Of a DNA stretch of 64,000 nt, positions 27,843 through 57,122 are shown one piece after another (position 1 is the stretch's first letter; every line of letters starts with the position of its first letter). The notes below the pieces were generated by a model. The model had not been told where the DNA came from. It ran no database searches and worked only from the letters and a program-made list of their open reading frames with translations. The DNA is from Bacteroidetes bacterium 24-39-8 (lineage in GTDB: Bacteria > Bacteroidota > Bacteroidia > Chitinophagales > Chitinophagaceae). The position numbers and the translations under genes are program-made. The stretch lies in assembly GCA_002256765.1 (NCBI GenBank), contig NCHJ01000001.1, positions 17,910-81,909 of the forward strand. Reading direction: 5' to 3'.

Positions 27843-28562
27843 TTAGAGTTGCTTGATGCGAATATTGCGGAAATAGACGTCATTGCCATGGTCTTGCAAA
27901 GCAATATGTCCTTTAAATGACTTGCCAAAATCTGGTTTGGTTTTAAACTTGCTTCCTGCAATCAGGTTCTTCCAGTTTTCATCGCCGTAGGTGGTTGAAA
28001 CAACTACTACACCGTTTAATAGCAATTCCAGTTTCCCTTTATTGCTAATTACTTCTGCTAAGTTCCATTCTCCAACGGGTTTAACTACGCCTTCTTTTCC
28101 TTCTACTAAATCATAGAGATTGCCCGCACGGTGTTTGATAATCTTACCATCGCTATGGCCGTCATTATCTAATACCTGCATTTCAGGGCCAGTCCACCAA
28201 GATTCCTTGTATTTGGATGTGTCTTCCTGCGCATAAAAAATGATCCCGCTATTACCATTGGGAGAAATTTTCCATTCCATTTTCAAATGAAAATTTTCAT
28301 AAGCGCCGTCCGTAATCAGGTCTCCACCGCCACTGCCTTTATTGGCTTTTTTGTATGCAGCATCTAGATGAATAACACCATCTGTTACCTTCCAGGCTTC
28401 TCCACCTGATTTGTTGCCGTATACATGCCAACCTTTGGTGGTCTTGCCATCAAAGAGTGACTTGAAACCCTTTTCAGTTTGATTGGACGGTGTTGTTGGT
28501 TTGTCAGGATTGCCCACAAGTAGGGAAAGGGAAACAAGACTGGCTAAAAGCAATGTTTGCAT
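27843..28562 (-). CDS. DUF1080 (3-keto-disaccharide hydrolase family) exported protein
   Basis: 239 residues with a Sec-type signal peptide (MQTLLLASLVSLSLLVG). The rest is the concanavalin-like DUF1080 domain: FKSLFDGKTTKGWHVYGN, WKVTDGVIHLDA, GGGDLITDGAYENFHLKMEWKISPNGNSGI and the C-terminal GHIALQDHGNDVYFRNIRIK. Family members cleave glycosides already oxidised at C3. It is the last gene of the leftward operon with cytochrome c, a TIM-barrel isomerase and a Gfo/Idh dehydrogenase, and ends at a terminator. The exact substrate cannot be read from sequence. Confidence 0.88.
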   Translation of the reverse strand: MQTLLLASLVSLSLLVGNPDKPTTPSNQTEKGFKSLFDGKTTKGWHVYGNKSGGEAWKVTDGVIHLDAAYKKANKGSGGGDLITDGAYENFHLKMEWKISPNGNSGIIFYAQEDTSKYKESWWTGPEMQVLDNDGHSDGKIIKHRAGNLYDLVEGKEGVVKPVGEWNLAEVISNKGKLELLLNGVVVVSTTYGDENWKNLIAGSKFKTKPDFGKSFKGHIALQDHGNDVYFRNIRIKQL

Positions 28563-28568
28563 GTTGGT

Positions 28569-28970
28569 TTATTTGCGTAGTAAGAAAATATATTTCACCA
28601 TTTGTTTGGCGTCTTCTTCTGTCATGGCAGGATGTGGTGTCATAGGCACTTGACCCCAAACACCTGAACCACCTTTGATAATTTTTCCTGCTAATAAAGT
28701 CAGGTTCTCTTCATTGTTTTCATATTTGGCTGCAACGTCTTTATAAGCCGGTCCAATATTCTTGGTATCGGTTTTATGACAAGTTAAACAGTCAGATTTG
28801 GCAATCAAAGTCAATCCCTTTTCGTAGTCAGGATTAGCGCTGATGTCATTGGCCGCAGGTGCTGCTGGTTCTGCACTAACACTTGGGTTGTCTTTTTTCT
28901 CTGGAGTGCTGCTTCCTCCGCATGCTGCCAAAAATGCAATGGCAGTCAATGCTACTAAATACTTTTTCAA
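28569..28970 (-). CDS. Lipoprotein cytochrome c
   Basis: 133 residues starting at a TTG (28970), the only sensible start: it gives KKYLVALTAIAFLAAC with lipobox Cys17, while in-frame ATGs lie inside the next gene. A Ser/Pro/Ala linker leads to a class I mono-heme domain with CLTCH at 61-65 and the likely axial Met110 in GQVPM. It is probably membrane-anchored in the periplasm and is a natural electron acceptor for the GMC dehydrogenase across the divergent promoter. It lies 6 bp upstream of the DUF1080 gene. Confidence 0.87.
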   Translation of the reverse strand: MKKYLVALTAIAFLAACGGSSTPEKKDNPSVSAEPAAPAANDISANPDYEKGLTLIAKSDCLTCHKTDTKNIGPAYKDVAAKYENNEENLTLLAGKIIKGGSGVWGQVPMTPHPAMTEEDAKQMVKYIFLLRK

Positions 28971-29004
28971 TGCTCTGAATTTTAAATATGAATGGTTAAA
29001 GTTA

Positions 29005-30060
29005 TTACTGAATTCCCAATATGCGTTTATTAAATGCTTCGTCAGAACCGGTATTGGCAAAATCGTCAAAAGCTTTTTCGGTAACGCGAATAATATGGTC
29101 TTTGATAAATACAGAACCCTCTGCTGCACCGGTTTCTGGGTGCTTAATGGCGCATTCCCATTCCATGACGGCCCAGCCCTTATAGTTATAAGCAGCTAGT
29201 TTGCTAAAGATAGATTTGAAATCTACCTGACCATCGCCCAAGGAACGGAACCTACCTGCACGGTCTATCCAGTTTTGGTAGCCACCGTAAACACCTTGTT
29301 TACCCGTTGGATTAAACTCTGCGTCTTTTACATGGAACATTTTAATGCGCTCATGATAGTAATCTATATAAGCTAGATAGTCTAGGCTTTGTAGCACAAA
29401 ATGCGATGGATCATAGAGTAGGTTGGCCCTTTTGTGGTTGCCTACTTTTTCCAAAAACATTTCATAACTAATCCCGTCATGCAGGTCTTCTCCTGGATGA
29501 ATTTCATAGCAAAGGTCTACTCCAACCTCGTCAAATTTGTTGAGGATGGGCAACCAACGATTGGCTAGTTCTGTAAATCCGGTTTCTACTAGTCCTGCTG
29601 GTCTTTGTGGCCATGGATACACGGTATGCCATAATAAAGCTCCGCTAAAAGTAGCGTGTGCGTCTAAACCCAAGTTGCGTGATGCTTTGGCTGCATATTC
29701 CAATTGCTGTACCGCCCATGCGGTTCTAGCGGTTGGATTATTGCGAACAGCCTCAGGTGCAAATCCGTCAAACAAAGCGTCATAAGCGGGATTTACCGCT
29801 ACCAACTGTCCTTGCAAATGAGAACTAAGTTCTGTGATTTCCAAACCAGCTGCGTTCACTATGCCCTTGATCTCGTCGGCATAGGTTTTACTTTCGGCTG
29901 CTTTTTGTAAATCAATGCATCTTGGATCCCAACTAGGAATTTGCACACCTACAAAACCCAAACTCTTGGCCCAAGCACAAATAGTGTCTAGTTGATTAAA
30001 TGGGGCTGTATCTCCCATGAATTGGGCCAGAAAAATTCCGGGTCCTTTAATATTGGTCAT
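29005..30060 (-). CDS. Sugar phosphate isomerase/epimerase (TIM barrel), cytosolic
   Basis: 351 residues of the AP-endonuclease-2/xylose-isomerase-like barrel, without signal peptide. Metal-site motifs are visible in order: CYEIHPGEDLHDG (Glu), LLYDPSHFVLQ (Asp and His), MFHVKDAEF (His) and AVMEWECAI (Glu). Members isomerise or epimerise sugars, and some relatives cleave 3-keto-glycosides. It lies 34 bp upstream of cytochrome c and 18 bp downstream of Gfo/Idh in one leftward operon. Confidence 0.87.
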   Translation of the reverse strand: MTNIKGPGIFLAQFMGDTAPFNQLDTICAWAKSLGFVGVQIPSWDPRCIDLQKAAESKTYADEIKGIVNAAGLEITELSSHLQGQLVAVNPAYDALFDGFAPEAVRNNPTARTAWAVQQLEYAAKASRNLGLDAHATFSGALLWHTVYPWPQRPAGLVETGFTELANRWLPILNKFDEVGVDLCYEIHPGEDLHDGISYEMFLEKVGNHKRANLLYDPSHFVLQSLDYLAYIDYYHERIKMFHVKDAEFNPTGKQGVYGGYQNWIDRAGRFRSLGDGQVDFKSIFSKLAAYNYKGWAVMEWECAIKHPETGAAEGSVFIKDHIIRVTEKAFDDFANTGSDEAFNKRILGIQ

Positions 30061-30078
30061 AAGAACTGATTAATTGGT

Positions 30079-31245
30079 TTAGATCTTGTATTCGGTCCAT
30101 TTAATATCTGATTGCGCAGAAGCCACCACATTGTCTATAAATGCCATGCCCCTGATACCATCGGCCACGCCTGGAAAATCTAATTCTTCCTTGGTGGGTT
30201 CAGTTCCGTCTATTCTAGCAGAAAGGGTTTTGGCAAAATTGTGGTAGATATTGGCAAATGCTTCTAAGTATCCTTCTGGGTGTCCGCCCGGAGTGCGGCA
30301 ATTCATGGTAGCATAACTGCTCAAGCGGTCTCCATAATTACCCCCTGCGCGCAGGATTTGGGTTGGAGCGTCTAACCATTTTACCAACAAGGTATTGGGT
30401 TCATGCTGTGCCCATTCAATACCACCCTTCTCTCCGTAAACGCGAATCTTGAGTGCATTCTCTTCACCAGCAGCTACCTGAGAAGCCATTAATACTCCGT
30501 GAGCGCCATTGCTAAATTTCAACAAAACATTGCCGTCATCATCCAGCATACGGCCGGGTACCATGGCATTCAAATCTGCACAGAGATGGGTAATCTGAGC
30601 GCCAGTAATATATTCAGATAAGTGTGCTGCGTGGGTGCCTATATCGCCCATGCAACCACTCTTACCGCTTTTCTTAGGATCTGTTCTCCATGCTGCTTGG
30701 GCATTACCCTCGCGTTCAGACAATTTACTCAACCAGCCTTGGGGATATTCAACCCAAACCTTGCGAATGGCACCAAGTACCCCATCGGCCACCATGGCCC
30801 TGGCTTGTTTTACCAATGGATATCCGGAATAAGTATGGGTGAGGCAAAGGATCAAACCAGTCTCTTCTACTTTTTGTTTGAGTTGTAGGGCTTCATCTAA
30901 GGTAAAAGCAATAGGCTTTTCAATAACTACGTGAAAACCGTGCTCCAAAGCCATCATGGCTGGGGCAAAATGCGCAAAATTGGGTGTTACAATGGTCACA
31001 AAGTCAATGCGCTTGTCTGCAGGAAGGGCTGACTCCTTCTCAATCATTTCCTGAAAGGTTAAATAAGTTCTTTCAGCAGGCAGGAATAGCATTTTGCCTG
31101 ATTCAACAGCAACTTCTGGATTGATGCTCAATGCACCAGCTGCCACTTCAATTAATCCATCCATATTGGCGGCAAAACGGTGGATGGCTCCAATGAAAGC
31201 GTCTTTACCGCCTCCAATCATGCCCATTCTGAGTTTACGATTCAT
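30079..31245 (-). CDS. Gfo/Idh/MocA family oxidoreductase, cytosolic
   Basis: 388 residues. N-terminal NAD(P) fold with GMIGGGKDAFIGAIHR, then TPNFAHFAPAMMALEHGFHVVIEKPIAF containing the family EKP motif; the C-terminal sheet follows with GDIGTHAAHL supplying the catalytic His. There is no signal peptide. It is first in the leftward arm of the sugar locus. Reduction of a 3-keto sugar to the free sugar is a reasonable inference; inositol or other polyol oxidation is an alternative. Confidence 0.88.
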   Translation of the reverse strand: MNRKLRMGMIGGGKDAFIGAIHRFAANMDGLIEVAAGALSINPEVAVESGKMLFLPAERTYLTFQEMIEKESALPADKRIDFVTIVTPNFAHFAPAMMALEHGFHVVIEKPIAFTLDEALQLKQKVEETGLILCLTHTYSGYPLVKQARAMVADGVLGAIRKVWVEYPQGWLSKLSEREGNAQAAWRTDPKKSGKSGCMGDIGTHAAHLSEYITGAQITHLCADLNAMVPGRMLDDDGNVLLKFSNGAHGVLMASQVAAGEENALKIRVYGEKGGIEWAQHEPNTLLVKWLDAPTQILRAGGNYGDRLSSYATMNCRTPGGHPEGYLEAFANIYHNFAKTLSARIDGTEPTKEELDFPGVADGIRGMAFIDNVVASAQSDIKWTEYKI

Positions 31246-31536
31246 ATAGCTTTATTATAATTAATGATGCAATCGGGTATAGCTTAAAAAATTCCTTTCA
31301 AATTTAATACAAGCAAAGCAGTGATGGATGAATATTTTGACAAAGGTTAAGGGCTTGATACTTTTTTGTTCTAGGCAGCTGTTTTTTTGACTTTTACATA
31401 GTGTCAAACAGACACAAAGCAATGTTTTAGCCAAATGACCGAAAAAAATAGCTTGATTGCCGATGAATTCAAGCCATTTTTAAAAATAAAAAATTACATT
31501 TAGTTCCTAAACATTGCTTTCCATAATTCTATCAAC
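31246..31536. promoter_or_regulatory. Divergent regulatory gap of the sugar locus
   Basis: 291 bp between divergent operons. A minus-strand -7 box TAAATTTG lies at 31299-31306, 54 bp before the Gfo/Idh start. Repeated TTTGAC/GTCAAA half-sites occur: TTTTGACAAA at 31335-31344, the inverted pair TTTGAC (31386-31391) and GTCAAA (31403-31408), and GTGTC-AAACA-GACAC at 31401-31415. They look like an operator cluster. I see no ORF or RNA here. Confidence 0.45.
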
Positions 31537-32811
31537 ATGCAAACTACCCCACAGCGTAGCCAATTATTTGTTGCCAGTTGTCTGGCCTTATTGGTAACTT
31601 CTTTATCTTTTGGAATCCGTGCAGGCATTCTTGGTCAACTTGGTACCGAGTTTCATTTAAATGCCGAAGAACTAGGAACCATTGCCGCCACCGCATTCTG
31701 GGGTTTTCCCTTAGCCGTAGTCATTGGAGGTATTTTTGTAGATATTATTGGCATGAAAAAACTATTGCTGGTTGCATTTAGTTTTCACTTGATTGGAATC
31801 CTACTCACCATTTTTGCTGGTGGTTATTGGAGTTTGTTTATCTCTACCTTATGTATAGGTATTGCTAATGGAACTGTTGAAGCTGCATGTAATCCGCTAG
31901 TAGCAACCATTTATTCTGATAACAAAACCACCAAACTGAACCACTTTCACCTTTGGTTTCCCGGAGGAATTGTGATTGGTACCCTCATTGTTTATTTCTT
32001 GAGCAAGTTGGGCATTAGCTGGCAAATTCAAGTTGGTCTAATGATCATACCTACTATTCTCTATGGTTACTTATTCAGTAAATTAAGCTTTCCTGTTACA
32101 GAACGTGTTGCCAGCGGGGTTTCTACAGCTGATATGTACAAAGCCGTATTAAATCCTTTGTTCCTCTTCATGATTGTCTTGATGTTTGGAACCGCTATTA
32201 CAGAATTATTTACAGGTCAGTGGATTGACGTTTTGTTGAAAAATGTTTCTGATAATGCCATTTTATTATTGACCATTGAAACCGGTGTAATGGTTTTGGG
32301 CAGGGCATTTGCGGAACCTGTGGTACACAAATTTTCTCCTGCAGGAGTGTTATTGATTTCAGCTATTTTGGCTGCATTGGGTCTTTATCTGCTAGGCCAT
32401 ACCACGGGTAATATGTTATTTGTTGGAGCCATAGTATTTGGAATGGGTGTATGTTATTTCTGGCCTACCATGCTTGGCTTTGTTTCTGAGAATTTGCCTA
32501 AAACTGGTGCTATTGGCATGAACTTTATGGGTGGAGCCGGTATGTTTGCCGTTTCTGTTTATATGATGTTTATGGGTGGTTATTATGACCGTTTGATTTC
32601 TGGCAAGTTGCCAGCTGGCGCCGATATGAAACAATACGCAGACGCTGCCCCAGGAACTGATTTTGCCAATGTGTTAAATGAAGCTAAAAAAGCGGCTGGT
32701 CCTGAAATTATCAATGCAACTTTAGTGATCCCTGTTATCTTGGTGGTGGCTTTTGCAGGTTTACTGTTTTACATGAAAGGCAAACAAAAAGAAACATTGA
32801 CAAAAGCATAG
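31537..32811 (+). CDS. MFS sugar transporter
   Basis: 424 residues with 12 predicted helices and a central loop near residues 185-205. Loop motif GGIFVDIIGMKK between helices 2 and 3 and ACNPLVATIY are typical of fucose/glucose-type MFS permeases. The first gene of the rightward arm, 26 bp before a Tat TIM-barrel gene. It is the only permease in the locus and so likely imports the oxidised sugar or aglycone. Substrate not determined. Confidence 0.85.
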   Translation: MQTTPQRSQLFVASCLALLVTSLSFGIRAGILGQLGTEFHLNAEELGTIAATAFWGFPLAVVIGGIFVDIIGMKKLLLVAFSFHLIGILLTIFAGGYWSLFISTLCIGIANGTVEAACNPLVATIYSDNKTTKLNHFHLWFPGGIVIGTLIVYFLSKLGISWQIQVGLMIIPTILYGYLFSKLSFPVTERVASGVSTADMYKAVLNPLFLFMIVLMFGTAITELFTGQWIDVLLKNVSDNAILLLTIETGVMVLGRAFAEPVVHKFSPAGVLLISAILAALGLYLLGHTTGNMLFVGAIVFGMGVCYFWPTMLGFVSENLPKTGAIGMNFMGGAGMFAVSVYMMFMGGYYDRLISGKLPAGADMKQYADAAPGTDFANVLNEAKKAAGPEIINATLVIPVILVVAFAGLLFYMKGKQKETLTKA

Positions 32812-32836
32812 ATTATTCTCATTTTATTTGATCCTT

Positions 32837-33721
32837 ATGTCCCAAACATCCAATAGAAGAAACGCCATCAAAAACATTGTTGCAGGATCTGCAGCCTTGG
32901 CTACTGGTGCCGGATTGTCTTCATTTAAATCCGATATGAATCAAGCATCACAAGCCCTGAAAGGCAATATCAACCATTCAGCCTGCCGCTGGTGTTATAA
33001 TTCTATTCCTTTAGAACAGCTTTGTAGCCAGTTTAAAGAATTGGGTCTGGTAGGCATGGACTTAGTAGGTCCTAAAGACTGGCCCATGCTCAAAAAATAC
33101 AACCTCATTTCTACCATGTGCAATGGGGCTGAATTGGGTTTAACCAAGGGTTGGAATGACAAACAATACCACGGCCAGTTGATTAAAAATTATACGGAAC
33201 ATATTGACCTTGTAGCTGCAGCAGGATATACTAATTTGTTTTGTGCCAGTGGAAACCGCGGAACCATTGATGATGAAACCGGTTTAAAAAACTGTACCGA
33301 AGGTTTGAAACAAATTGTAGGCCAGGCAGAGAAAAAAGGCGTAGTCCTAGTCATGGAATTACTAAATAGCAAAGTGGATCACAAAGACTATATGTGTGAC
33401 CGTAGCACTTGGGGCGTAGAACTAGTAAAACGTGTGGGTTCACCAAATTTCAAATTGCTCTATGATATTTACCATATGCAAATTGACGAGGGCGATGTGA
33501 TCCGTACCATTCGTGCCAATCACGAATATTATGGACACTATCATACCGGTGGAGTACCCGGCCGTCATGAAATTGACGAGACCCAAGAGCTCTATTATCC
33601 CGCCATCATGAAAGCCATTCATGAAACAGGATTCAAAGGTTATGTGGCACAGGAATTTATTCCATCTGCCCCAGACCCCATTGCATCTCTGCGCAAGGCA
33701 ATTCAAATCTGCGACATCTAA
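32837..33721 (+). CDS. Tat-exported TIM-barrel protein (hydroxypyruvate isomerase-like)
   Basis: 294 residues from the ATG at 32837; the TTG at 32828 only adds three residues. A twin-arginine signal (SNRRNAIKNIVAGSAALATG) leads to a barrel with VLVMELLNSKVDH (Glu), LLYDIYHMQIDEGD (Asp) and GYVAQEFIP (Glu). Hyi isomerises hydroxypyruvate in the cytosol, but export here points to another substrate, perhaps a 3-keto-glycoside as for CarB-type lyases. GMC starts 35 bp later. Confidence 0.83.
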   Translation: MSQTSNRRNAIKNIVAGSAALATGAGLSSFKSDMNQASQALKGNINHSACRWCYNSIPLEQLCSQFKELGLVGMDLVGPKDWPMLKKYNLISTMCNGAELGLTKGWNDKQYHGQLIKNYTEHIDLVAAAGYTNLFCASGNRGTIDDETGLKNCTEGLKQIVGQAEKKGVVLVMELLNSKVDHKDYMCDRSTWGVELVKRVGSPNFKLLYDIYHMQIDEGDVIRTIRANHEYYGHYHTGGVPGRHEIDETQELYYPAIMKAIHETGFKGYVAQEFIPSAPDPIASLRKAIQICDI

Positions 33722-33756
33722 ACAAATCCATAACATCCAAAAACAAACCCACAAAA

Positions 33757-35436
33757 ATGGCCGATCAAACTTATGACGCAATTGTAGTTGGTTCAGGAAT
33801 CAGCGGTGGCTGGGCCGCCAAAGAATTGACTGAAAAGGGTCTGAAAGTATTGCTACTGGAAAGAGGGCGCAATATTGAACACGTAAAGGACTATGTTTCC
33901 GCCAACAAAGAGGCTTGGGACTTTCCACACCGTGGAAGAAGAACCCAACAAATGATTCAGGATTATCCCAATTTGAAAAGGGATTATCCTTTAAATGAAA
34001 TCAATTTAGATTTTTGGTGCAAGGATAATGAGCATCCTTATACAGAAGTAAAACCGTTCTACTGGTTCCGCGGATACCATGTGGGTGGTAAATCTTTGAT
34101 GTGGGGAAGACAAAGTTATCGCTGGAGCGATTTAGACTTTGAAGCCAACGCAAAAGATGGGCATGGTGTTGACTGGCCTGTGCGTTATAAAGACATTGCA
34201 CCTTGGTATGACTATGTAGAAAAATTTGCCGGCATTAGTGGAAACAAAGACGGGTTGGCGGTTTTGCCTGATGGTCAGTTTCTACCTCCTATGGATATGA
34301 CCTGCGTTGAAAAAGACGTAGCTGCTAGAATCAAAGATTTGTACAAAGGTGAGCGCGCCATGATCATTGGCCGTACTGCTAACCTAACTGTTCCTCATGA
34401 AGGAAGAACCAATTGCCAGTTTAGAAATAAGTGCTGGTTGGGTTGTCCTTTTGGCGGATACTTTAGTACCCAATCTTCTACTTTACCTGCTGCACAAAAA
34501 ACAGGTAATCTTACTTTGCGTCCTTTCTCTATTGTTACCAAAGTCTTGTATGACAAAGACAAGAAAAAAGCAACAGGCGTTGAAGTACTGGATAGCGAAA
34601 CAAATAAAACAGTTGAATACAAAGCCAAGATTATCTTCTTAAATGCGGGTACCTTGGATAGTGCTAAAATTTTGATGAACTCCGCTACCGATGTATGGCC
34701 TGATGGTTTGGGTAGCAGTTCAAATGAATTGGGTCATAACCTAATGGACCATCACTTGGGAACTGGTGCTGGTGGTAAAGTAGAAGGATATGAAGACAAA
34801 TACTATTTTGGACGCCGCGCCAATGGCATCTATATTCCTAGGTACCGTAACGTAGGTAATGACAAACGCGACTATGTTCGTGGATTTGGTTACCAAGGTG
34901 GTGGAACCAGAGAAGGATGGAGCCGTCAGGTTGCTGAGTTTAGTATTGGTGCTGACTTTAAAGACTCCCTAACAGAACCAGGTTCATGGACCATGGGTAT
35001 GGGTGGCTTTGGAGAAATGTTACCTTACCATGACAATAAGATTAGCATTGACAAAAACAAGAAAGACAAATGGGGTCTGAATGTTTTGGCCATTGACTGC
35101 GAACTCAAAGAGAACGAGAAGAAAATGCGTAAAGACTGCGTAGCAGATGCTATTGAAATGCTTACTGCTGCTGGTGTTAAAGACGTAAAAGGATGGGATG
35201 GTGACGGTACTCCAGGAAAAGGGATCCATGAAATGGGTACGGCTAGAATGGGTAAAGACCGCAAAACATCTGTCTTGAACGGCAATAACCAAGTATGGGA
35301 TGCGCCAAACGTATTTGTTACCGATGGTGCGTTTATGACTTCTGCATCTTGCGTGAATCCAAGCTTGACTTATATGGCATTCACTGCTAGGGCTGCGGCT
35401 TTTGCAGTAGAAGAACTTAAAAAACAAAACCTTTAA
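33757..35436 (+). CDS. GMC family FAD-dependent oxidoreductase (sugar dehydrogenase large subunit)
   Basis: 559 residues. FAD-binding GxGxxG at 12-17 (VVGSGISGG), a GRQSYRWSDLDFE region, Cys-rich NCQFRNKCWLGCPFGG, and the catalytic pair His491 (IHEMGTARMG) and Asn534 (SCVNPSLTY). It has no signal peptide of its own; the small subunit encoded next to it carries a Tat signal, as in gluconate, fructose and glucose dehydrogenases where the large subunit is carried along. Likely role: oxidation of a sugar or glycoside, possibly at C3, with electrons to cytochrome c. Confidence 0.9.
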   Translation: MADQTYDAIVVGSGISGGWAAKELTEKGLKVLLLERGRNIEHVKDYVSANKEAWDFPHRGRRTQQMIQDYPNLKRDYPLNEINLDFWCKDNEHPYTEVKPFYWFRGYHVGGKSLMWGRQSYRWSDLDFEANAKDGHGVDWPVRYKDIAPWYDYVEKFAGISGNKDGLAVLPDGQFLPPMDMTCVEKDVAARIKDLYKGERAMIIGRTANLTVPHEGRTNCQFRNKCWLGCPFGGYFSTQSSTLPAAQKTGNLTLRPFSIVTKVLYDKDKKKATGVEVLDSETNKTVEYKAKIIFLNAGTLDSAKILMNSATDVWPDGLGSSSNELGHNLMDHHLGTGAGGKVEGYEDKYYFGRRANGIYIPRYRNVGNDKRDYVRGFGYQGGGTREGWSRQVAEFSIGADFKDSLTEPGSWTMGMGGFGEMLPYHDNKISIDKNKKDKWGLNVLAIDCELKENEKKMRKDCVADAIEMLTAAGVKDVKGWDGDGTPGKGIHEMGTARMGKDRKTSVLNGNNQVWDAPNVFVTDGAFMTSASCVNPSLTYMAFTARAAAFAVEELKKQNL

Positions 35437-35458
35437 TCAAACACTTAAACAAAAGATA

Positions 35459-36028
35459 ATGAACAGAAGAGAAGCCATTTCCAGTGTTGCATTACTGTTG
35501 GGCGGAACTTTGATTGGAGCAGAAGCATTTCTGTCTGGTTGCAAAACTTCAGACAAGGGTGCAGCTGGTTTCAATTTAAGCAAGGACGATATTGCCTTCC
35601 TCAATGAAGTAGGCGAAACCATCTTACCTGCCACCGCCACACCCGGTGCCAAAGAAGCCAAAGTGGGCGAATTCATGAGCGTCTATGTTAAGGACTGCTA
35701 TGAAGAAAAAGACCAAACCATTTTCTTAGAAGGATTTAAAAAGCTAGATGAAGCTGCTAAGAAAAAATCTGGTAAGTCTTTCTTAGAAAGCACAGCAGAA
35801 CAAAGACATGATTTATTGGTAGACTTGGACAAAGAAACCAAGGAATACCAAAAAGCTAAAAAAGACACGGACCCTAACCACTATTTCAAGATGATGAAAG
35901 AATTGACCCTATTGGGCTTCTTTACTTCTGAAGTAGGTGCTACCAAGGCATTGCGCTATGTAGCGGTTCCAGGAAAATACGAAGGCTGTATTCCTTACAA
36001 AAAAGGAGACAAGGCCTGGGCTACCTAG
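35459..36028 (+). CDS. Gluconate 2-dehydrogenase subunit 3 family protein (Tat small subunit)
   Basis: 189 residues. N-terminal RREAISSVALLLGGTLIGAEAFLSGC has a twin-arginine start and a lipobox-like Cys. The helical domain with FNLSKDDIAFLNEVGETILPATATPGAKEA and HYFKMMKELTLLGFFTSEVGATKALRY matches the small (gamma, hitch-hiker) subunit family. It starts 22 bp after the GMC gene. It should export and anchor the GMC flavoprotein. Confidence 0.9.
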   Translation: MNRREAISSVALLLGGTLIGAEAFLSGCKTSDKGAAGFNLSKDDIAFLNEVGETILPATATPGAKEAKVGEFMSVYVKDCYEEKDQTIFLEGFKKLDEAAKKKSGKSFLESTAEQRHDLLVDLDKETKEYQKAKKDTDPNHYFKMMKELTLLGFFTSEVGATKALRYVAVPGKYEGCIPYKKGDKAWAT

Positions 36029-36048
36029 TAGTATTCAATTTGATTTTT

Positions 36049-36076
36049 ATCCCGGGATGAATTTTCATTCCGGGAT
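36049..36076 (+). terminator. Hairpin between the dehydrogenase small subunit and the next TIM-barrel gene
   Basis: ATCCCGGGATGAA pairs with the following TTCATTCCGGGAT (about 12 pairs including one G-T). The T-tract after it is poor (TATTCATTGTT), so it may attenuate rather than stop transcription of the next gene. Confidence 0.55.
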
Positions 36077-36099
36077 TATTCATTGTTAAAAACGATTGT

Positions 36100-36969
36100 A
36101 TGAATAACAACAGAAGAGATTTCCTGCGCATGAGTGCTTTTGCAGCTGCAGGTTTATCCTTGCCATTTGCTGGAAAATCAGCCTCCCTATTTGAAGGATT
36201 CGGTGCTAAGAAATTGCCCGCATTCGGTATTCAACTTTGGACCGTTAAAGAAGACATGGCCAAAGACGCCAAAGGCACTTTGAAAAAATTGGCTGCTTAC
36301 GGTTACAAACAAATTGAAAGCTTTGAAGGGTCTAAAGGAATTTTTTGGGGCATGGACCACAAAGATTTCAAAAAGTACATGGATGAGCTGGGTATGAAAA
36401 TTGTTTCTGCACACTGCGATACCAATAAGGATTTTGAGCGCAAAGCTGCTGAAGCTGCTGCCATTGGAATGAAGTATTTAATCTGCCCTTATAAAGGAGC
36501 TCAGAAATCAATAGACGACTACAAGAAATTTGCAGACGAGTTTAACAAGAACGGTGATATCTGTAAGAAGAATGGGATTCGCTTTGCCTATCATAACCAT
36601 GACTATTCTTTTGTTCCTATGAATGGACAAGTACCTCAGGATGTGATGATGGATAATACCAATAAAGACACGGTTGATTTTGAAATGGATATTTATTGGG
36701 TAGTTGCTGCTGGCATTGACCCTATTGCTTATTTCAAAAAATATCCCAACCGTTTCCGTCTCTGTCATATCAAGGACTTGACCAAGACCAAGTCTGGTCA
36801 TGAGTCTTGCCACTTAGGTAAAGGCACTATTGACTTTAAGTCTATTGTCAAAGCTGGAACAGACGCCGGCTTGAAATATTATGTGGTAGAGCAGGAAGCA
36901 TTCACAGGTTCCAATCCATTGGAAAGTGCTGAATTAGACAGCGCCTATTTACAAAGCTTTAGTTTCTAG
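36100..36969 (+). CDS. Tat-exported sugar phosphate isomerase/epimerase (TIM barrel)
   Basis: 289 residues with the consensus-like twin-arginine signal NNRRDFLRMSAFAAAGLSL. Barrel motifs: FGIQLWTVKEDM, RFAYHNHDYSF, VDFEMDIYWVVAAG (Glu, Asp) and CHIKDLTKT. This subfamily is widely annotated as sugar phosphate isomerase but export makes a phosphorylated substrate unlikely. It closes the rightward arm of the locus and ends at a bidirectional terminator. Confidence 0.86.
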   Translation: MNNNRRDFLRMSAFAAAGLSLPFAGKSASLFEGFGAKKLPAFGIQLWTVKEDMAKDAKGTLKKLAAYGYKQIESFEGSKGIFWGMDHKDFKKYMDELGMKIVSAHCDTNKDFERKAAEAAAIGMKYLICPYKGAQKSIDDYKKFADEFNKNGDICKKNGIRFAYHNHDYSFVPMNGQVPQDVMMDNTNKDTVDFEMDIYWVVAAGIDPIAYFKKYPNRFRLCHIKDLTKTKSGHESCHLGKGTIDFKSIVKAGTDAGLKYYVVEQEAFTGSNPLESAELDSAYLQSFSF

Positions 36970-36991
36970 TACTTACTACAAACACAAATAA

Positions 36992-37023
36992 AAAGCGACC
37001 CCAAATCAAATTGGGGTCGCTTT
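36992..37023. terminator. Bidirectional terminator between the TIM-barrel and Gfo/Idh genes
   Basis: AAAGCGACCCCAA and TTGGGGTCGCTTT form a 13-bp perfect stem with a 6-base loop; A-rich on one side and T-rich on the other, so it works in both directions. Confidence 0.9.
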
Positions 37024-37043
37024 GTTTTATCAGATTATGTAGA

Positions 37044-38498
37044 CTAAACGCCGAGTGACCAGCCGTCGCGGTAAGTACGCTTCACAAACTGATTGGCTTC
37101 GTCAAAATTGGTAATCTTCATATTTGGTCCATCCCAAAGTAATTTGATAAATCTTCCTGGATGATCCATACCCCCTTTGGCATTTTTCTTTTCTAGGTCA
37201 TAGCTTCTTATGGCTAGGTTACCCATTAAGATACTTTCGGTTAAAGGACCAGCAATATCAAAATGAGAACTTAGGTTCTTGGCTTTATCAGAACCATATC
37301 CGGCAATAGCTGCTTCAACCCATGCTGCATAGTGGCCATTATCGCCTTTAGGCACCCTAGCAATGGTTTGAGGAACTATAACGGTCTTGGTTCTTTCTGT
37401 TGGCAATAACTGAGGTTTAATACCATAAGTACCACACATCATCTTGCCCTTGGTTCCAATAAAGATGGCGCCATTACCACCATCACCCATCACTTCATTG
37501 GGTCCTAGTTCTTCTGGACGCTCTGGTTGAATACCACCATCCATCCAGTGTAGTTTTAAATCGGGTTTACCATTCTTGCCTTTAAAGGTTAGAATAATAT
37601 GAGAAGAGATGGGTCCGCTTTCTGGATAAGCAGCTTTGGTCCAGTTGGCTACATACCTGGTTGCAACGCTACATTCTGCCGCATCTGGATAACCCAGACC
37701 TAATACTGCAAAGGCTGGAGCCATAATATGGCAAGCCATATCGCCAAGGGCACCGGTACCATAATCCCACCAACCGCGCCAGTTAAATGGTAAAAGCCCT
37801 TCTACATAATCTTTTCCTGGAGCAGTTCCCTGCCATAGATCCCAATCCAATTCTTTGGGGATGGGTGCATTTTGTTTAGCCCAAGCAATACCCTGTGGCC
37901 AAACAGGACGGTCAGTATAACAGTAAATGGTATGCACGTCTCCAAGAAGACCAGCATTGTACCATTCCATTAATTGGCGTACGCCGTCACCAGAAGAACC
38001 TTGGTTACCCATTTGTGTAACCACTTTATAATCATGAGCCGCTTTGGTAACCATGCGCGCTTCATAGATATCGTGTGTCAATGGTTTTTGAACATAGACA
38101 TGCTTTTTCAATTGCATGGCTGCCATGGCTTGCACAGCGTGTTGGTGGTCAGGGGTAGACACAGAACAAGCATCAATAAACTTGTGTTCCTTGTCTAGCA
38201 TCTCCCTATAATCTTTGTAAACCTTTGCATTTGGATAGCGTGCACGGCTCTTGGCTGTTTGGCGTTCGTCTACGTCACAGAGAAAAGCAATATCGGCCTT
38301 GCCACTTTGAAAGAAATTCCAAAGATCGCTCTCACCCTTACCACCAGCGCCAATACCGGCCACTTGCAGTTTATCACTTGGTGCAATAAAACCCCTGCCC
38401 AAAACGTGACGGGGAACAATGGTAAAACCGGCTAAAGCCAGTGCCCCGTTGCGTAAAAAGCCGCGGCGGGCAGTGTTTGTTGGTTCGTTTTTTTTCAT
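37044..38498 (-). CDS. Tat-exported Gfo/Idh/MocA family oxidoreductase
   Basis: 484 residues with a twin-arginine signal (TARRGFLRNGALALAGF). Rossmann-like part VAGIGAGGKGESD, then STPDHQHAVQAMAAMQLKKHVYVQKPLTH with QKP in place of EKP, and WWDYGTGALGDMACH with the catalytic His. Exported members keep tightly bound NAD and include GH109-type glycosidases, so this may be a periplasmic glycosidase or redox epimerase instead of a soluble dehydrogenase. It converges with the sugar locus and is divergent from aldehyde dehydrogenase. Confidence 0.85.
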   Translation of the reverse strand: MKKNEPTNTARRGFLRNGALALAGFTIVPRHVLGRGFIAPSDKLQVAGIGAGGKGESDLWNFFQSGKADIAFLCDVDERQTAKSRARYPNAKVYKDYREMLDKEHKFIDACSVSTPDHQHAVQAMAAMQLKKHVYVQKPLTHDIYEARMVTKAAHDYKVVTQMGNQGSSGDGVRQLMEWYNAGLLGDVHTIYCYTDRPVWPQGIAWAKQNAPIPKELDWDLWQGTAPGKDYVEGLLPFNWRGWWDYGTGALGDMACHIMAPAFAVLGLGYPDAAECSVATRYVANWTKAAYPESGPISSHIILTFKGKNGKPDLKLHWMDGGIQPERPEELGPNEVMGDGGNGAIFIGTKGKMMCGTYGIKPQLLPTERTKTVIVPQTIARVPKGDNGHYAAWVEAAIAGYGSDKAKNLSSHFDIAGPLTESILMGNLAIRSYDLEKKNAKGGMDHPGRFIKLLWDGPNMKITNFDEANQFVKRTYRDGWSLGV

Positions 38499-44680: not shown

Positions 44681-45418
44681 TTAAAGAGTTTTTTTCTTTT
44701 TCAATTCTCCTGCCATTTGAATGCTGTGTTTTAATGAATTGATATTGTTCCAGTCACTATGTGAAACAATGATGTATTTTGGATCAGCAAATTTTTTCTG
44801 AACATTTAATAGGGTAGTCTCATATGCTTTAGTATTTCCATCACCTAAGTAACCTAAATTTTCTGCGTCTGCACCTTTGATTAAACATCCACCGTACAAT
44901 ATTTTTTCTTTATTAAACCAGACTACAATATTGTCAGCAGTATGTCCTTCTCCTGGATAATAAGTTTCAAAACTATATTGATCAAAATGGAAAACTGTGT
45001 CTTTGGCAATTAAGAATTCCGCTCTTTTGGCATTTTCTTTTTTGCTCAATTGATCGGTTAGGGTAGTGGTGTATGTCTTGATTCCTTGACGCCTATAATA
45101 TTCCAGACCTGCTGTTCTGTCTCCATGCCAATGTGTTGCCAAGCAAAATATCACAGATTTCTGATGCCTCTTTTTAATACTATCAAGTAGTGGTTGAAAC
45201 TGTGTGGTATCCCAAGGAGTGTCAAATAGGATAACAGCTTTTTTAGTAACTAGGTACATACCATTTGCAGGCGTCCTACTTTCTTGATAAGTATTATAGG
45301 TGGTATAAATATAAAAATCGCCTTTTAAGGCTGTAATCTTTAATGGTTGTTCATTTGACTGAGCAAATAGATTGCCATAAAATAGTATTAAAGAGATTGT
45401 TAATAAAAATTGGTTCAT
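44681..45418 (-). CDS. Subclass B1 metallo-beta-lactamase
   Basis: 245 residues with a Sec signal (FLLTISLILFYGNLFAQ). Both zinc sites of subclass B1 are intact: His96, His98 and Asp100 in THWHGDRTAG, His159 in PGEGHTADN, Cys178 in YGGCLIKGADAENLG and His220 in VSHSDWNN. These match periplasmic carbapenem-hydrolysing enzymes of environmental Bacteroidota. Activity against beta-lactams is inferred from complete ligands and loop sequence. No integron, IS or other resistance gene is next to it. Confidence 0.9.
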   Translation of the reverse strand: MNQFLLTISLILFYGNLFAQSNEQPLKITALKGDFYIYTTYNTYQESRTPANGMYLVTKKAVILFDTPWDTTQFQPLLDSIKKRHQKSVIFCLATHWHGDRTAGLEYYRRQGIKTYTTTLTDQLSKKENAKRAEFLIAKDTVFHFDQYSFETYYPGEGHTADNIVVWFNKEKILYGGCLIKGADAENLGYLGDGNTKAYETTLLNVQKKFADPKYIIVSHSDWNNINSLKHSIQMAGELKKKKTL

Positions 45419-54860: not shown

Positions 54861-57122
54861 ATGAGAAAGCAGTTTTTTGCAGTGGCAACCCTTCTAGTCA
54901 TGGCCATTGCAGTGCAGGCTCAAAATAGCAAGCCTGCTAGCACCCCTTTGTACAAAAATGCCAAAGCTCCCATTGAACAGCGCATCAAAGACTTGTTGCA
55001 GCGCATGACTTTGGAAGAAAAAGCTGGGCAATTAAACCAAGTAAATGGTGGAGTGTTCACGGGCCCTGCTGCTAATGACCCTGGTCAAAAAGCCAAATTG
55101 GAATTGGCTAAAAAAGGAGGTGTGGGTTCTTTCTTAAACGTGATTGGGGTTGCAGAAACTAGGAACGCCCAAAAAGCTGTGGTAGAAAATTCACGTTTGG
55201 GTATTCCCTTATTATTTGGATTTGACGTAATTCATGGATATAGAACCGTATTCCCAATTCCATTGGCAGAAGCCGGTACATGGGATTTAGCTGGCATTGA
55301 AAAAAACGCTACCGTGCACGCTAAAGAAGCAGCAGCAGCCGGGGTACACTGGACTTTTGCACCCATGTGCGATATTAGCAATGACCCACGTTGGGGTCGT
55401 GTCATGGAAGGTGGTGGAGAAGATCCTTATTTGGGTGGATTGGTGGCAGCAGCTCGTGTAAAAGGTTTACAGGGAAAGCAATATGACACCGAACATATTA
55501 TGGCTTGTATCAAACATTTTGCGGTCTATGGTGCTGTTGAAGCTGGAAGAGAATACAATAATGTAGACGTATCGCGCGTAGCTCTTTGGAATAAATACTT
55601 GCCTCCCTATAAAGCAGCAGTAGAAGCTGGAGCAGCAACTGTGATGAATTCTTTTAACGTATTTGATGGCATTCCTGCTGGCGGTAACAAATATTTGGTA
55701 ACCGATATCTTACAGAAAAAATGGGGTTTCAAAGGTTTTGTGGTAAGTGACTGGGGAAGTTTTGGAGAAATGATTAACCATGGTTATGCAGTGGATGAAA
55801 AAGACGCTGCTTTAAAAGCTTTGCAAGCTGGTAGCCATATGGATATGGAAGCAAATGTTTCTGGCCGATTTGTACCACAGTTAGTAAAAGAAGGAAAGTT
55901 GAGCATGGCACAATTGGATGATGCTGTTGGTAGAATTTTATATTTCAAATTCAAACTAGGTTTATTTGAAGATCCCTATAAATATTCCAATGCAGACAGA
56001 GAAGCAGCTACTTTGTTCAATGCTGCCAATCGTGCTCAAGCACTGGAAGCGGCTAAGAAAAGTATTCTTTTACTAAAGAACAATCATGAAGTATTGCCAC
56101 TGAAAACTGATGGCACCAAGATTGCGTTGATTGGCCTTTATGCCAATAGTAAAGAAGACATGTTTGATTTTTGGATTGCCAATGGAACCGCAAATGATGC
56201 AGTTACCGTGAAGGAAGGAATGGAGAAAAGATTTGGTGCCAATAATGTGAACTATGCACCAGGTTATTTAGCCGATGGTAGCACAGACGAACAATTGGTA
56301 AAAGACGCAGTAGCTGCTGCTGATAAAGCAGCTGTAGTAGTGGTGAATATTGGCATTAGCGGCAAGATGGCTGGAGAAGACAGAGCTTTAGCCAATATCA
56401 ATATTCCAGAAGGACAAATTAGATTATTGCGTGCTTTGCAAAAACAGGGCAGACCTGTGATTGCATTGGTGAGCAGCGGTAGACCATTGGTGTTAACCAA
56501 TATTCAAGACATTACTACAGCGATAGTTCAAACCTGGATTCTAGGAACAGAAACAGGAAATGCAGTTGCAGCTATGTTAGCTGGTGATTATAATCCTTCT
56601 GCAAAAGCAGTGATGACTTTTCCTTATGCATTGGGTCAAGTGCCTGTGTACTACAACCATTTCAATACCAATAGACCTGCACCAGAAACTGGAGATGCTA
56701 GTTGGAAGTCTCGCTACCGCGATATTCCCAATGAACCACTCTATCCTTTTGGATTTGGTTTAAGTTATACTTCTTATAACTATTCTAACTTAAGTGTTAG
56801 TTCTGAAAAAATTTCGCGCTCTCAACCCTTGCAAGTGCGCGTAACCGTAAAGAACAGCGGAAAGGTTGACGGAGAAGAAGTAGTGCAATTATATATCCGA
56901 GATATTGCGGCTTCTATTGTTCGTCCAGTAAAAGAGTTGAAAGCTTTTCAGAAAGTATTCCTAAAAGCTGGTGAGTCAAAAGAAATCAGTTTTGTGCTTA
57001 CAGGCAAAGACCTATCCTTCTATGACGGAGAAGGCAACGCTCGTTTAGAAAATGGCGCTTTTAAAGTAATGGTGGGTGGTGATTCTAAAACTGTATTGGA
57101 AAAAGGATTTGAGTTACAATAG
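54861..57122 (+). CDS. bglX: Periplasmic beta-glucosidase (glycoside hydrolase family 3)
   Basis: 753 residues. Signal peptide (FFAVATLLVMAIAVQAQ) followed by the GH3 TIM barrel, with catalytic Asp297 in VVSDWGSFGE; the alpha/beta sandwich (around 400-590) and C-terminal fibronectin III-like domain (VTVKNSGKVDGEEVVQLYI) complete the BglX architecture. It cleaves terminal beta-glucosides in the periplasm. It is unlinked to the sugar locus at 28-38 kb but could feed it. Confidence 0.93.
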   Translation: MRKQFFAVATLLVMAIAVQAQNSKPASTPLYKNAKAPIEQRIKDLLQRMTLEEKAGQLNQVNGGVFTGPAANDPGQKAKLELAKKGGVGSFLNVIGVAETRNAQKAVVENSRLGIPLLFGFDVIHGYRTVFPIPLAEAGTWDLAGIEKNATVHAKEAAAAGVHWTFAPMCDISNDPRWGRVMEGGGEDPYLGGLVAAARVKGLQGKQYDTEHIMACIKHFAVYGAVEAGREYNNVDVSRVALWNKYLPPYKAAVEAGAATVMNSFNVFDGIPAGGNKYLVTDILQKKWGFKGFVVSDWGSFGEMINHGYAVDEKDAALKALQAGSHMDMEANVSGRFVPQLVKEGKLSMAQLDDAVGRILYFKFKLGLFEDPYKYSNADREAATLFNAANRAQALEAAKKSILLLKNNHEVLPLKTDGTKIALIGLYANSKEDMFDFWIANGTANDAVTVKEGMEKRFGANNVNYAPGYLADGSTDEQLVKDAVAAADKAAVVVVNIGISGKMAGEDRALANINIPEGQIRLLRALQKQGRPVIALVSSGRPLVLTNIQDITTAIVQTWILGTETGNAVAAMLAGDYNPSAKAVMTFPYALGQVPVYYNHFNTNRPAPETGDASWKSRYRDIPNEPLYPFGFGLSYTSYNYSNLSVSSEKISRSQPLQVRVTVKNSGKVDGEEVVQLYIRDIAASIVRPVKELKAFQKVFLKAGESKEISFVLTGKDLSFYDGEGNARLENGAFKVMVGGDSKTVLEKGFELQ

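Follow-up and report, generated by a model that had tools for sequence, protein, structure and literature searches.

A ten-gene block with two divergent arms

The DNA analysed here (the window) is a stretch of 64,000 nucleotides from contig NCHJ01000001.1 of Bacteroidetes bacterium 24-39-8, a genome assembled in 212 contigs and rated 86% complete; all coordinates are window positions. At 27843-38498 it carries a block of ten genes that we examined for a predicted role in the oxidative breakdown of small glycosides. The families and strands given to these genes in a preliminary description of the same DNA were borne out by the open reading frames (ORFs) and by Pfam, every one of the ten ORFs having at least one model above the gathering score. 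Two starts were adjusted: the cytochrome c gene was corrected to a TTG at 28970 (complement), which gives a protein of 133 amino acids in place of the listed 186-amino-acid ORF, and TIM-2 probably begins with the ATG at 32837, as read from the sequence.

The minus-strand arm comprises, in order of transcription, genes for a dehydrogenase of the Pfam Gfo/Idh/MocA family (Gfo/Idh-1, 30079..31245), a TIM-barrel protein (TIM-1, 29005..30060), a LacB-like lipoprotein cytochrome c (28569..28970; Cytochrom_C, 36.9 bits) and a DUF1080 protein (27843..28562), whose family PF06439 is named '3-keto-disaccharide hydrolase'. Across a divergent intergenic region (31246..31536), the plus-strand arm encodes a major facilitator superfamily (MFS) permease (31537..32811; MFS_1, 73 bits), a second TIM barrel (TIM-2, 32837..33721), a LacA/GlycDH-like GMC flavoprotein (33757..35436; GMC_oxred N and C domains), its small subunit of the Gluconate_2-dh3 or hitch-hiker type (35459..36028; PF13618, 136 bits) and a third TIM barrel (TIM-3, 36100..36969). 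It is followed, again on the minus strand, by a second Gfo/Idh/MocA protein (Gfo/Idh-2, 37044..38498), a homologue of the BT2158-like glycoside 3-dehydrogenases. The three TIM barrels match AP_endonuc_2 with 121, 83 and 62 bits. As described before, no SusC/SusD pair was found with Pfam among the ten ORFs of the block, and the block contains no regulator gene.

Signal motifs were assigned by eye, without a signal predictor. Twin-arginine motifs are seen in the small subunit, TIM-2, TIM-3 and Gfo/Idh-2, in agreement with the earlier assignment of these four to the twin-arginine translocation (Tat) pathway, and a TatC gene is present in the genome. The DUF1080 protein has a Sec-type signal, and none is visible in TIM-1, Gfo/Idh-1 or GMC.

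Conservation of the block across genomes

To collect near loci, genome contigs were scanned with GMC as the query and the best 80 loci were used, most of them titled as Chitinophagaceae or as unclassified Bacteroidota metagenome-assembled genomes (MAGs). Counts refer to the 41 loci in which GMC is flanked by more than 8.5 kb on the left and more than 4.5 kb on the right, the other 39 being left out for a short flank. Presence was scored with fixed identity cut-offs, on which the counts depend; the relatives are not independent of each other, and MAG loci can be short. TIM-1 and Gfo/Idh-1 were present in all 41 loci, TIM-2 in 40, the small subunit in 39, and DUF1080 and cytochrome c in 38 each, followed by MFS (30), TIM-3 (29) and Gfo/Idh-2 (22). 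Unrelated flanking genes were present in 18-20 of the loci (ALDH 19, GPx 19, tadA 20, SOD 18). The seven core genes, that is all except MFS, TIM-3 and Gfo/Idh-2, occurred together in 34 of the 41 loci, and all ten in nine.

For a wider view we used an even set of 148 genomes of the phylum and a cut-off of 500 bits, with counts read by hand from the listed rows. A TIM-1 homologue above this cut-off was found in 33 genomes and a GMC relative in 44; GMC was present in 33/33 genomes with TIM-1, compared to 11/115 of the others (Fisher p about 8e-24, relatedness ignored). Eight of the 11 GMC-only genomes hold a weaker TIM-1 relative (32-34% identity), and in the two loci that were read of those eight (L156 and L157) this relative, GMC and Gfo/Idh-1 are clustered. 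With the window's own genome excluded and coordinates copied by hand, GMC and TIM-1 were no more than 12 kb apart in 19 of 32 genomes. A further 35 stretches, none longer than 20 kb, were analysed; they came from 34 other genomes, and 33 of the stretches were picked by TIM-1 and two by GMC. Gfo/Idh-1 gave a hit in 33 of these wider loci, in one case weak and distant, and GMC in 21. DUF1080 was present in 20 (including two hits of no more than 50 bits), the small subunit in 19, TIM-2 in 16 (three below 80 bits), cytochrome c and TIM-3 in 14 each and Gfo/Idh-2 in 11.

The set was also found on a plasmid of Xanthomonas sacchari (NZ_CP010410.1, L111), where genes for LacI, TIM-1, a 'nucleoside permease', a Gfo/Idh protein, a TIM barrel and cytochrome c lie opposite to DUF1080, small subunit, GMC and TIM-2; by annotation, nine of the ten gene kinds are represented. 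Identities by tblastn were 71% for GMC, 64% for TIM-1, 56% for TIM-2, 41% for the small subunit, 30% for Gfo/Idh-1, 26% for TIM-3 and 25% for DUF1080, and neither the window MFS nor the window cytochrome c had a tblastn match in this stretch. Among the other plasmid relatives, Hymenobacter volaticus carries the set at a distance of a few genes from SusC/SusD, again including a 'nucleoside permease', and has two homologues of TIM-3. In the stretches of Paracoccus liaowanqingii and Palleronia, a sugar ABC transporter is present and no cytochrome c is annotated. In Novosphingobium capsulatum, GMC and its small subunit occur together with TIM-1, a Gfo/Idh gene and two MFS genes. The neighbourhood is thus conserved in relatives, as seen in the 41 near loci, the 35 wider loci and the Xanthomonas plasmid, and the grouping of the ten genes exceeds chance.

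A GMC flavoprotein with small subunit and cytochrome c

Among PDB entries, GMC scored 114 and 109 bits against glucose and fructose dehydrogenases of the small-subunit type (E 9e-32 to 5e-29), compared to at most 28 bits for choline oxidases. All its NCBIfam matches were far under cut-off, among them choline dehydrogenase with 57 bits (cut-off 605) and cholesterol oxidase with 59 bits (cut-off 850). On these scores we rejected a function as choline or alcohol oxidase; GMC did not group with such enzymes, its nearest relatives being sugar dehydrogenases with a small subunit. Each of the residues C220, C226, C230, H491 and N534 is shared by at least 97% of 80 sequences. In Burkholderia glucose dehydrogenase three such cysteines have a [3Fe-4S] cluster role, and GMC enzymes use His and Asn in catalysis.

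In the small subunit, the twin-arginine signal is followed by a lipobox-like LSGC (by eye), and GMC, having no signal of its own, would be exported riding with this subunit. The cytochrome c has a lipobox (LAAC) and a heme motif (CLTCH), as read from the sequence. As expected of a LacABC-type dehydrogenase, both a PF13618 small subunit and a cytochrome c are encoded near GMC. PF13618 and PF06439 matches were also present in Caulobacter vibrioides, which served as control genome. Elsewhere in the window genome, more GMC relatives (32-70% identity) are encoded on contigs C113, C169, C166, C80 and C158, two of them in tandem on C113, and there are four small-subunit matches, the window's own included.

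The complex could instead act in the periplasm as a dehydrogenase of sugars or alcohols in general, supplying the respiratory chain by incomplete oxidation, with the other genes serving a different sugar such as an inositol or a ketose. The glucose and fructose dehydrogenases are indeed the best PDB relatives of GMC by sequence, and the NCBIfam search gave weak scores of TIM-1 and TIM-3 to the inosose dehydratase IolE and of TIM-2 to hydroxypyruvate isomerase. However, these scores are far under cut-off (67 and 54 of 290 bits; 95 of 353 bits), and the association of GMC with TIM-1 across genomes, together with the published Agrobacterium operon (PMC10628242), ties the pairing to 3-keto chemistry. 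We consider this explanation very improbable.

Predicted hydration and reduction in the cytosol

TIM-1 is identical at 236 of 350 positions (67%; E 1e-171) to PDB entry 8ro4, titled '2-hydroxy-3-keto-glucal hydratase', which we infer to be AtHYD. TIM-1 is likely to have this hydratase activity, judging by this similarity. A glycal hydratase is useful only if a glycal is released, and we therefore favour beta-elimination as the mode of glycosidic cleavage. The best PDB match of Gfo/Idh-1 was 3v5n (356 bits), an entry whose function is not named, and Gfo/Idh-1 is a probable 3-keto-hexose reductase.

Two candidates for the cleaving enzyme

The DUF1080 protein scored 172 bits with PF06439 (gathering score 26.8) and matched PDB entries 8rr2, 3osd and 8tda with E about 4e-37, which makes it a candidate 3-keto-glycoside lyase or hydrolase. 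Nine matches to this domain were counted in the window genome, the window's own included, so that a better annotation of the family would reach other genes.

TIM-3 is the second candidate. Both arginines of its Tat motif are kept in 51/51 aligned sequences, and the same 51 sequences share an invariant set consisting of H165-N-H167, D197, H223 and E264. By order and spacing, this set corresponds to H132/H134/D163/H189/E233 of AtOGE, whose site is given in the relevant part of PMC10628242. AtOGE (8bvk, 58 bits) was not the closest solved relative of TIM-3 in the PDB search, in which 8tct, 8tcs and 8tcd, deposited under generic names, reached 122-125 bits. We take the 8tc and 8td structures to belong to a Nature paper of 2024 on oxidative glycan breakdown. 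TIM-3 is accordingly named here as a candidate only, either for a 3-keto-O-glycoside beta-eliminase or for a periplasmic hydratase; in the latter case TIM-3 and Gfo/Idh-2 could form a second branch that runs entirely in the periplasm.

It is also conceivable that DUF1080 hydrolyses 3-keto-glycosides directly to the free 3-keto sugar and that TIM-1 acts on another compound, for instance by isomerising or dehydrating a 3-keto sugar. Hydrolysis is what the Pfam name and the pertinent section of PMC9007349 propose, and DUF1080 genes are present in 38/41 near loci. Against this stand the 67% identity of TIM-1 to the glycal hydratase and its presence in 41/41 of these loci, a hydratase being needed only where a glycal is released. 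We regard direct hydrolysis as improbable and retain beta-elimination in what follows.

Gfo/Idh-2 is probably more than a gene-order neighbour

Gfo/Idh-2 reached 475 bits with the BT_2158 family model NF058561, under its curated cut-off of 750, and matched PDB entries 8tdf and 8tdh (8tdf, E 4e-101). On this similarity it is proposed to be an additional periplasmic glycoside 3-dehydrogenase.

The block might, however, be two separate modules brought side by side by ordinary gene order, one of LacABC type (GMC, small subunit, cytochrome c, DUF1080, TIM-1, Gfo/Idh-1, MFS and TIM-2) and one periplasmic and similar to BT2156-2158 (TIM-3 and Gfo/Idh-2). In the near loci Gfo/Idh-2 is about as common as the flanking genes, and the Xanthomonas, Paracoccus, Palleronia and Hymenobacter stretches have no counterpart of it, save weak overlaps with Gfo/Idh-1. 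The wider phylum gives a different picture. Six of the 11 loci with a homologue have it inside the set, between the GMC and small-subunit genes (L120 and L126) or between cytochrome c and DUF1080 (L129, L130, L132 and L134), and ALDH, GPx, tadA and SOD were not found in any of these six; in L127 it adjoins the small subunit. Because Gfo/Idh-2 is interleaved with genes of the set in six loci and lies beside the small subunit in a further one, we consider it more than a neighbour; the near loci alone had suggested a mere neighbour, and the wider-phylum loci contradict this. TIM-3, the other member of the supposed second module, has homologues in the clusters of Hymenobacter (36% identity by tblastn), Xanthomonas (26%), Paracoccus (26%) and Palleronia (24%). 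Two modules are doubtful on balance, though of the alternatives discussed here this is the one we take most seriously.

TIM-2 has an epimerase-type metal site

TIM-2 kept both Tat arginines in 66/66 aligned sequences, as well as E174, D210, H236 and E273, an epimerase-type metal site to which a D-psicose 3-epimerase aligns E, D, H and E in a search with the TIM-2 profile. Its profile match to YcjR (E 5e-6) ranked behind psicose and tagatose epimerases. An AlphaFold2 model of TIM-2 had a mean predicted local distance difference test (pLDDT) score of 82.5, with weak parts at 1-37 and 180-186. When it was searched with Foldseek, TIM-barrel epimerases were retrieved, including the 3-keto-D-glucoside 4-epimerase YcjR (6wn6). 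Among the 50 matches listed, YcjR had the highest TM-scores (0.69/0.77), with a lead of about 0.01; by E-value it was rank 7, and an unassigned Brucella protein (3ngf) came first. Sequence and model make TIM-2 a candidate 3-keto-hexoside epimerase. The nearest NCBIfam model, hydroxypyruvate isomerase, was rejected (94.7 bits, cut-off 353).

A TIM-2 homologue with 52% identity was also found on a plasmid of Parabacteroides distasonis (NZ_OY725755.1, L116, 7915-8781), where the rest of the set is absent in 18 kb. TIM-2 can therefore act outside this pathway.

A proposed oxidative route across the inner membrane

Taken together, we consider it probable, with fairly good confidence, that the products of the block break down small glycosides by a route that is oxidative and non-hydrolytic and extends across the inner membrane. 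We infer each reaction, the substrates, the direction of transport and the path of the electrons from what was observed, namely gene content, signal motifs, conservation, homology and conserved residues. Outside the cytoplasm, GMC with its Tat lipoprotein small subunit would oxidise the C3 hydroxyl of a glycoside and pass the electrons to the lipoprotein cytochrome c. The acidified proton at C2 would then be removed, and the aglycone or second sugar would leave by beta-elimination in the periplasm, catalysed by DUF1080 and/or TIM-3, to give 2-hydroxy-3-keto-glucal or its galactose counterpart. This product would be imported, here probably via the MFS permease, with the glycal or the 3-keto sugar as the crossing species. 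In the cytosol, TIM-1 would hydrate the glycal to a 3-keto-hexose, from which Gfo/Idh-1 would form the hexose at the expense of NAD(P)H. In the periplasm, TIM-2 is probably an epimerase of a 3-keto sugar, and Gfo/Idh-2 would be a further glycoside 3-dehydrogenase. The order oxidation, elimination, import, hydration and reduction is adopted because a glycal hydratase is useful only after beta-elimination.

The preliminary description had glycosides oxidised at C3 outside the cytoplasm, cleaved there, imported by the MFS protein and 'reduced or isomerised' inside. Homology and conservation agree with the extracytoplasmic oxidation and cleavage and with a reduction inside; the phrase 'reduced or isomerised' misses the hydration step assigned to TIM-1, and import by MFS is weak, as this protein is not the transporter of most other lineages.

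Several observations weigh against the route as drawn. The cleaving enzyme has two candidates, DUF1080 and/or TIM-3, and the DUF1080 protein shows low similarity to its counterparts in the plasmid clusters (24-27% by tblastn). Genetic data on related genes are unsupportive: the part of PMC9007349 that deals with Pedobacter DUF1080 mutants gives none with a lactose phenotype, and in one study the BT2157 and BT2158 mutants of Bacteroides thetaiotaomicron grew normally on raffinose-family sugars (PMC11501099). In 13 of the 32 other genomes, no GMC relative above 500 bits lies within 12 kb of TIM-1, some of the contigs being short. A plasmid of Phyllobacterium zundukense (NZ_CP104971.1, L115) has TIM-1, Gfo/Idh-1, LacI and a sugar ABC transporter without GMC in the 16 kb read; this set might serve to scavenge 3-keto sugars that other cells produce. 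Finally, the window-type MFS is absent from 11/41 near loci, occurs in just 2/35 wider loci and had no tblastn match in seven plasmid stretches.

Import by this MFS protein is the weakest step. Six of the seven plasmid stretches annotate a 'nucleoside permease', another MFS protein or a sugar ABC transporter, and the idea that they carry the same MFS protein was rejected, as their transporters lack a match to that of the window. A transporter is usually part of the set, with a type that differs between lineages, and it is plausible that a sugar-sized product is imported; the sugar ABC transporters of the Paracoccus and Palleronia clusters fit such a product. In L010, L018, L022 and similar near loci, several of them titled Sediminibacterium, the MFS gene is absent from its slot and the rest of the cluster is kept.

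Relation to known systems

In Caulobacter, LacABC is found with DUF1080, a transporter, two epimerases and a reductase, and the mutants have phenotypes on lactose; similar clusters are reported in Indibacter, Algoriphagus and Halomonas, and a LacABC-like dehydrogenase and phenotype in Pedobacter (PMC9007349, section 10 for Caulobacter). The window shares with these systems the combination of GMC, small subunit and cytochrome c, which we read as corresponding to LacABC, with DUF1080 nearby, and the Xanthomonas plasmid has the same gene kinds upstream of cytochrome c as the published cluster (PMC9007349). The window block differs in having two divergent arms and a separate gene, without a regulator, and TIM-2 and Gfo/Idh-2 are not named in section 10 of that paper. 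The Caulobacter epimerases are putative orthologues of TIM barrels of the window. The claim in the preliminary description that the gene combination is unusual did not hold, given the Caulobacter set in PMC9007349 and the nine gene kinds of the Xanthomonas plasmid.

The Agrobacterium GlycDH-OGE-HYD-Gfo operon, in the portion of PMC10628242 describing it, consists of a GMC 3-dehydrogenase, a TIM-barrel eliminase, a hydratase and a Gfo reductase, and has the same sequence of oxidation, elimination, hydration and reduction. The same source describes a Rhizobium GMC glycoside 3-dehydrogenase used together with a TAT-pathway protein. The window, by contrast, adds DUF1080 and cytochrome c and has export signals on its eliminase candidates and not on the hydratase or Gfo/Idh-1. 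A similar four-step logic, with two 'sugar phosphate isomerase' proteins and a Gfo/Idh reductase, is seen in the levoglucosan pathway LgdA-B1-B2-C; as outlined in the relevant part of PMC7676230, however, it starts with an NAD-dependent dehydrogenase, breaks an intramolecular anhydro bond and has four enzymes, none of them GMC or DUF1080. In the Bacteroides cluster BT2156-BT2160 for disaccharides and glucosinolates, DUF1080 (BT2157) and the periplasmic Gfo/Idh glycoside 3-dehydrogenase (BT2158) have homologues in the window, whereas Gfo/Idh-2 scores below the BT_2158 family cut-off. To our knowledge, neither GMC nor cytochrome c nor an AtHYD-type hydratase belongs to that cluster.

The proposed route thus follows the logic of the Agrobacterium and levoglucosan pathways, with the first two steps placed outside the cytoplasm as in the LacABC systems (in the parts of PMC10628242, PMC7676230 and PMC9007349 cited above). 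This kind of pathway is already published; what is added here is the join with hydratase chemistry, the recurrence of Gfo/Idh-2 and TIM-2 in the set, and a testable role for each of these two. The LacABC/DUF1080 clusters, known from mutant phenotypes, are connected with the Agrobacterium enzymes, whose chemistry is defined. One 'epimerase' of the LacABC clusters is predicted to be a glycal hydratase, and their reductase a 3-keto-hexose reductase. TIM-2 and Gfo/Idh-2, conserved and probably exported, bear on the entry of galactosides into the route and on how an enzyme with a nicotinamide cofactor can function in the periplasm.

A possible two-dehydrogenase relay

The periplasm is not known to have an NAD pool, and Tat-exported GFOR is a precedent. 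3-Keto-guloside and 3-keto-galactoside are the same structure. The best precedent that we read for a Tat-exported nicotinamide enzyme such as Gfo/Idh-2 is DgpA, which is described in part of PMC11239390 as having bound NAD(H) and a ping-pong mechanism and as being re-oxidised by 3-oxo-glucose.

On this basis one can imagine a relay in which the GMC complex only primes the pathway. Gfo/Idh-2, folded before Tat export with NAD(H) locked in, would oxidise each new glycoside at C3 and be re-oxidised by the 3-keto sugar released previously; TIM-2 would act as a 3-keto-hexoside 4-epimerase converting 3-keto-galactosides to 3-keto-glucosides. Because Gfo/Idh-2 would regain its oxidised form from the 3-keto sugar of the previous round, cleavage would be redox-neutral in a compartment without an NAD pool. 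The DgpA mechanism, the description of BT2158 as periplasmic (in the relevant part of PMC11300592), the Gfo/Idh-2 homologues inside the cluster in several families, the TIM-2 metal site and the structural match to YcjR are consistent with such a relay, which we nevertheless regard as speculative and rather unlikely. If true, the 4-epimerase role of TIM-2 would answer the question of the fate of 3-ketogalactose, stated as unknown in the pertinent section of PMC9007349.

Intergenic repeat and other genes in the window

The divergent intergenic region contains an inverted repeat, TGTC-N5-GACA, at 31402-31414. It occurs in 5/59 such regions (those of the window and of near loci L001, L002, L003 and L005), compared to 0.3 expected from mononucleotide shuffles, and in these five the arms are kept and the spacer varies. 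The repeat is a possible operator in the window; a general operator of the divergent promoter region was rejected, as the motif is found in only these five regions.

Outside the block, a gene for a subclass B1 metallo-beta-lactamase is located at 44681-45418 on the minus strand (NF033088, 247 bits with a cut-off of 200; BlaB/IND/MUS family, 287 bits with a cut-off of 270). A BglX-type GH3 beta-glucosidase is encoded at 54861-57122 on the plus strand (752 bits, cut-off 666), so that a conventional hydrolytic route lies in the same window.

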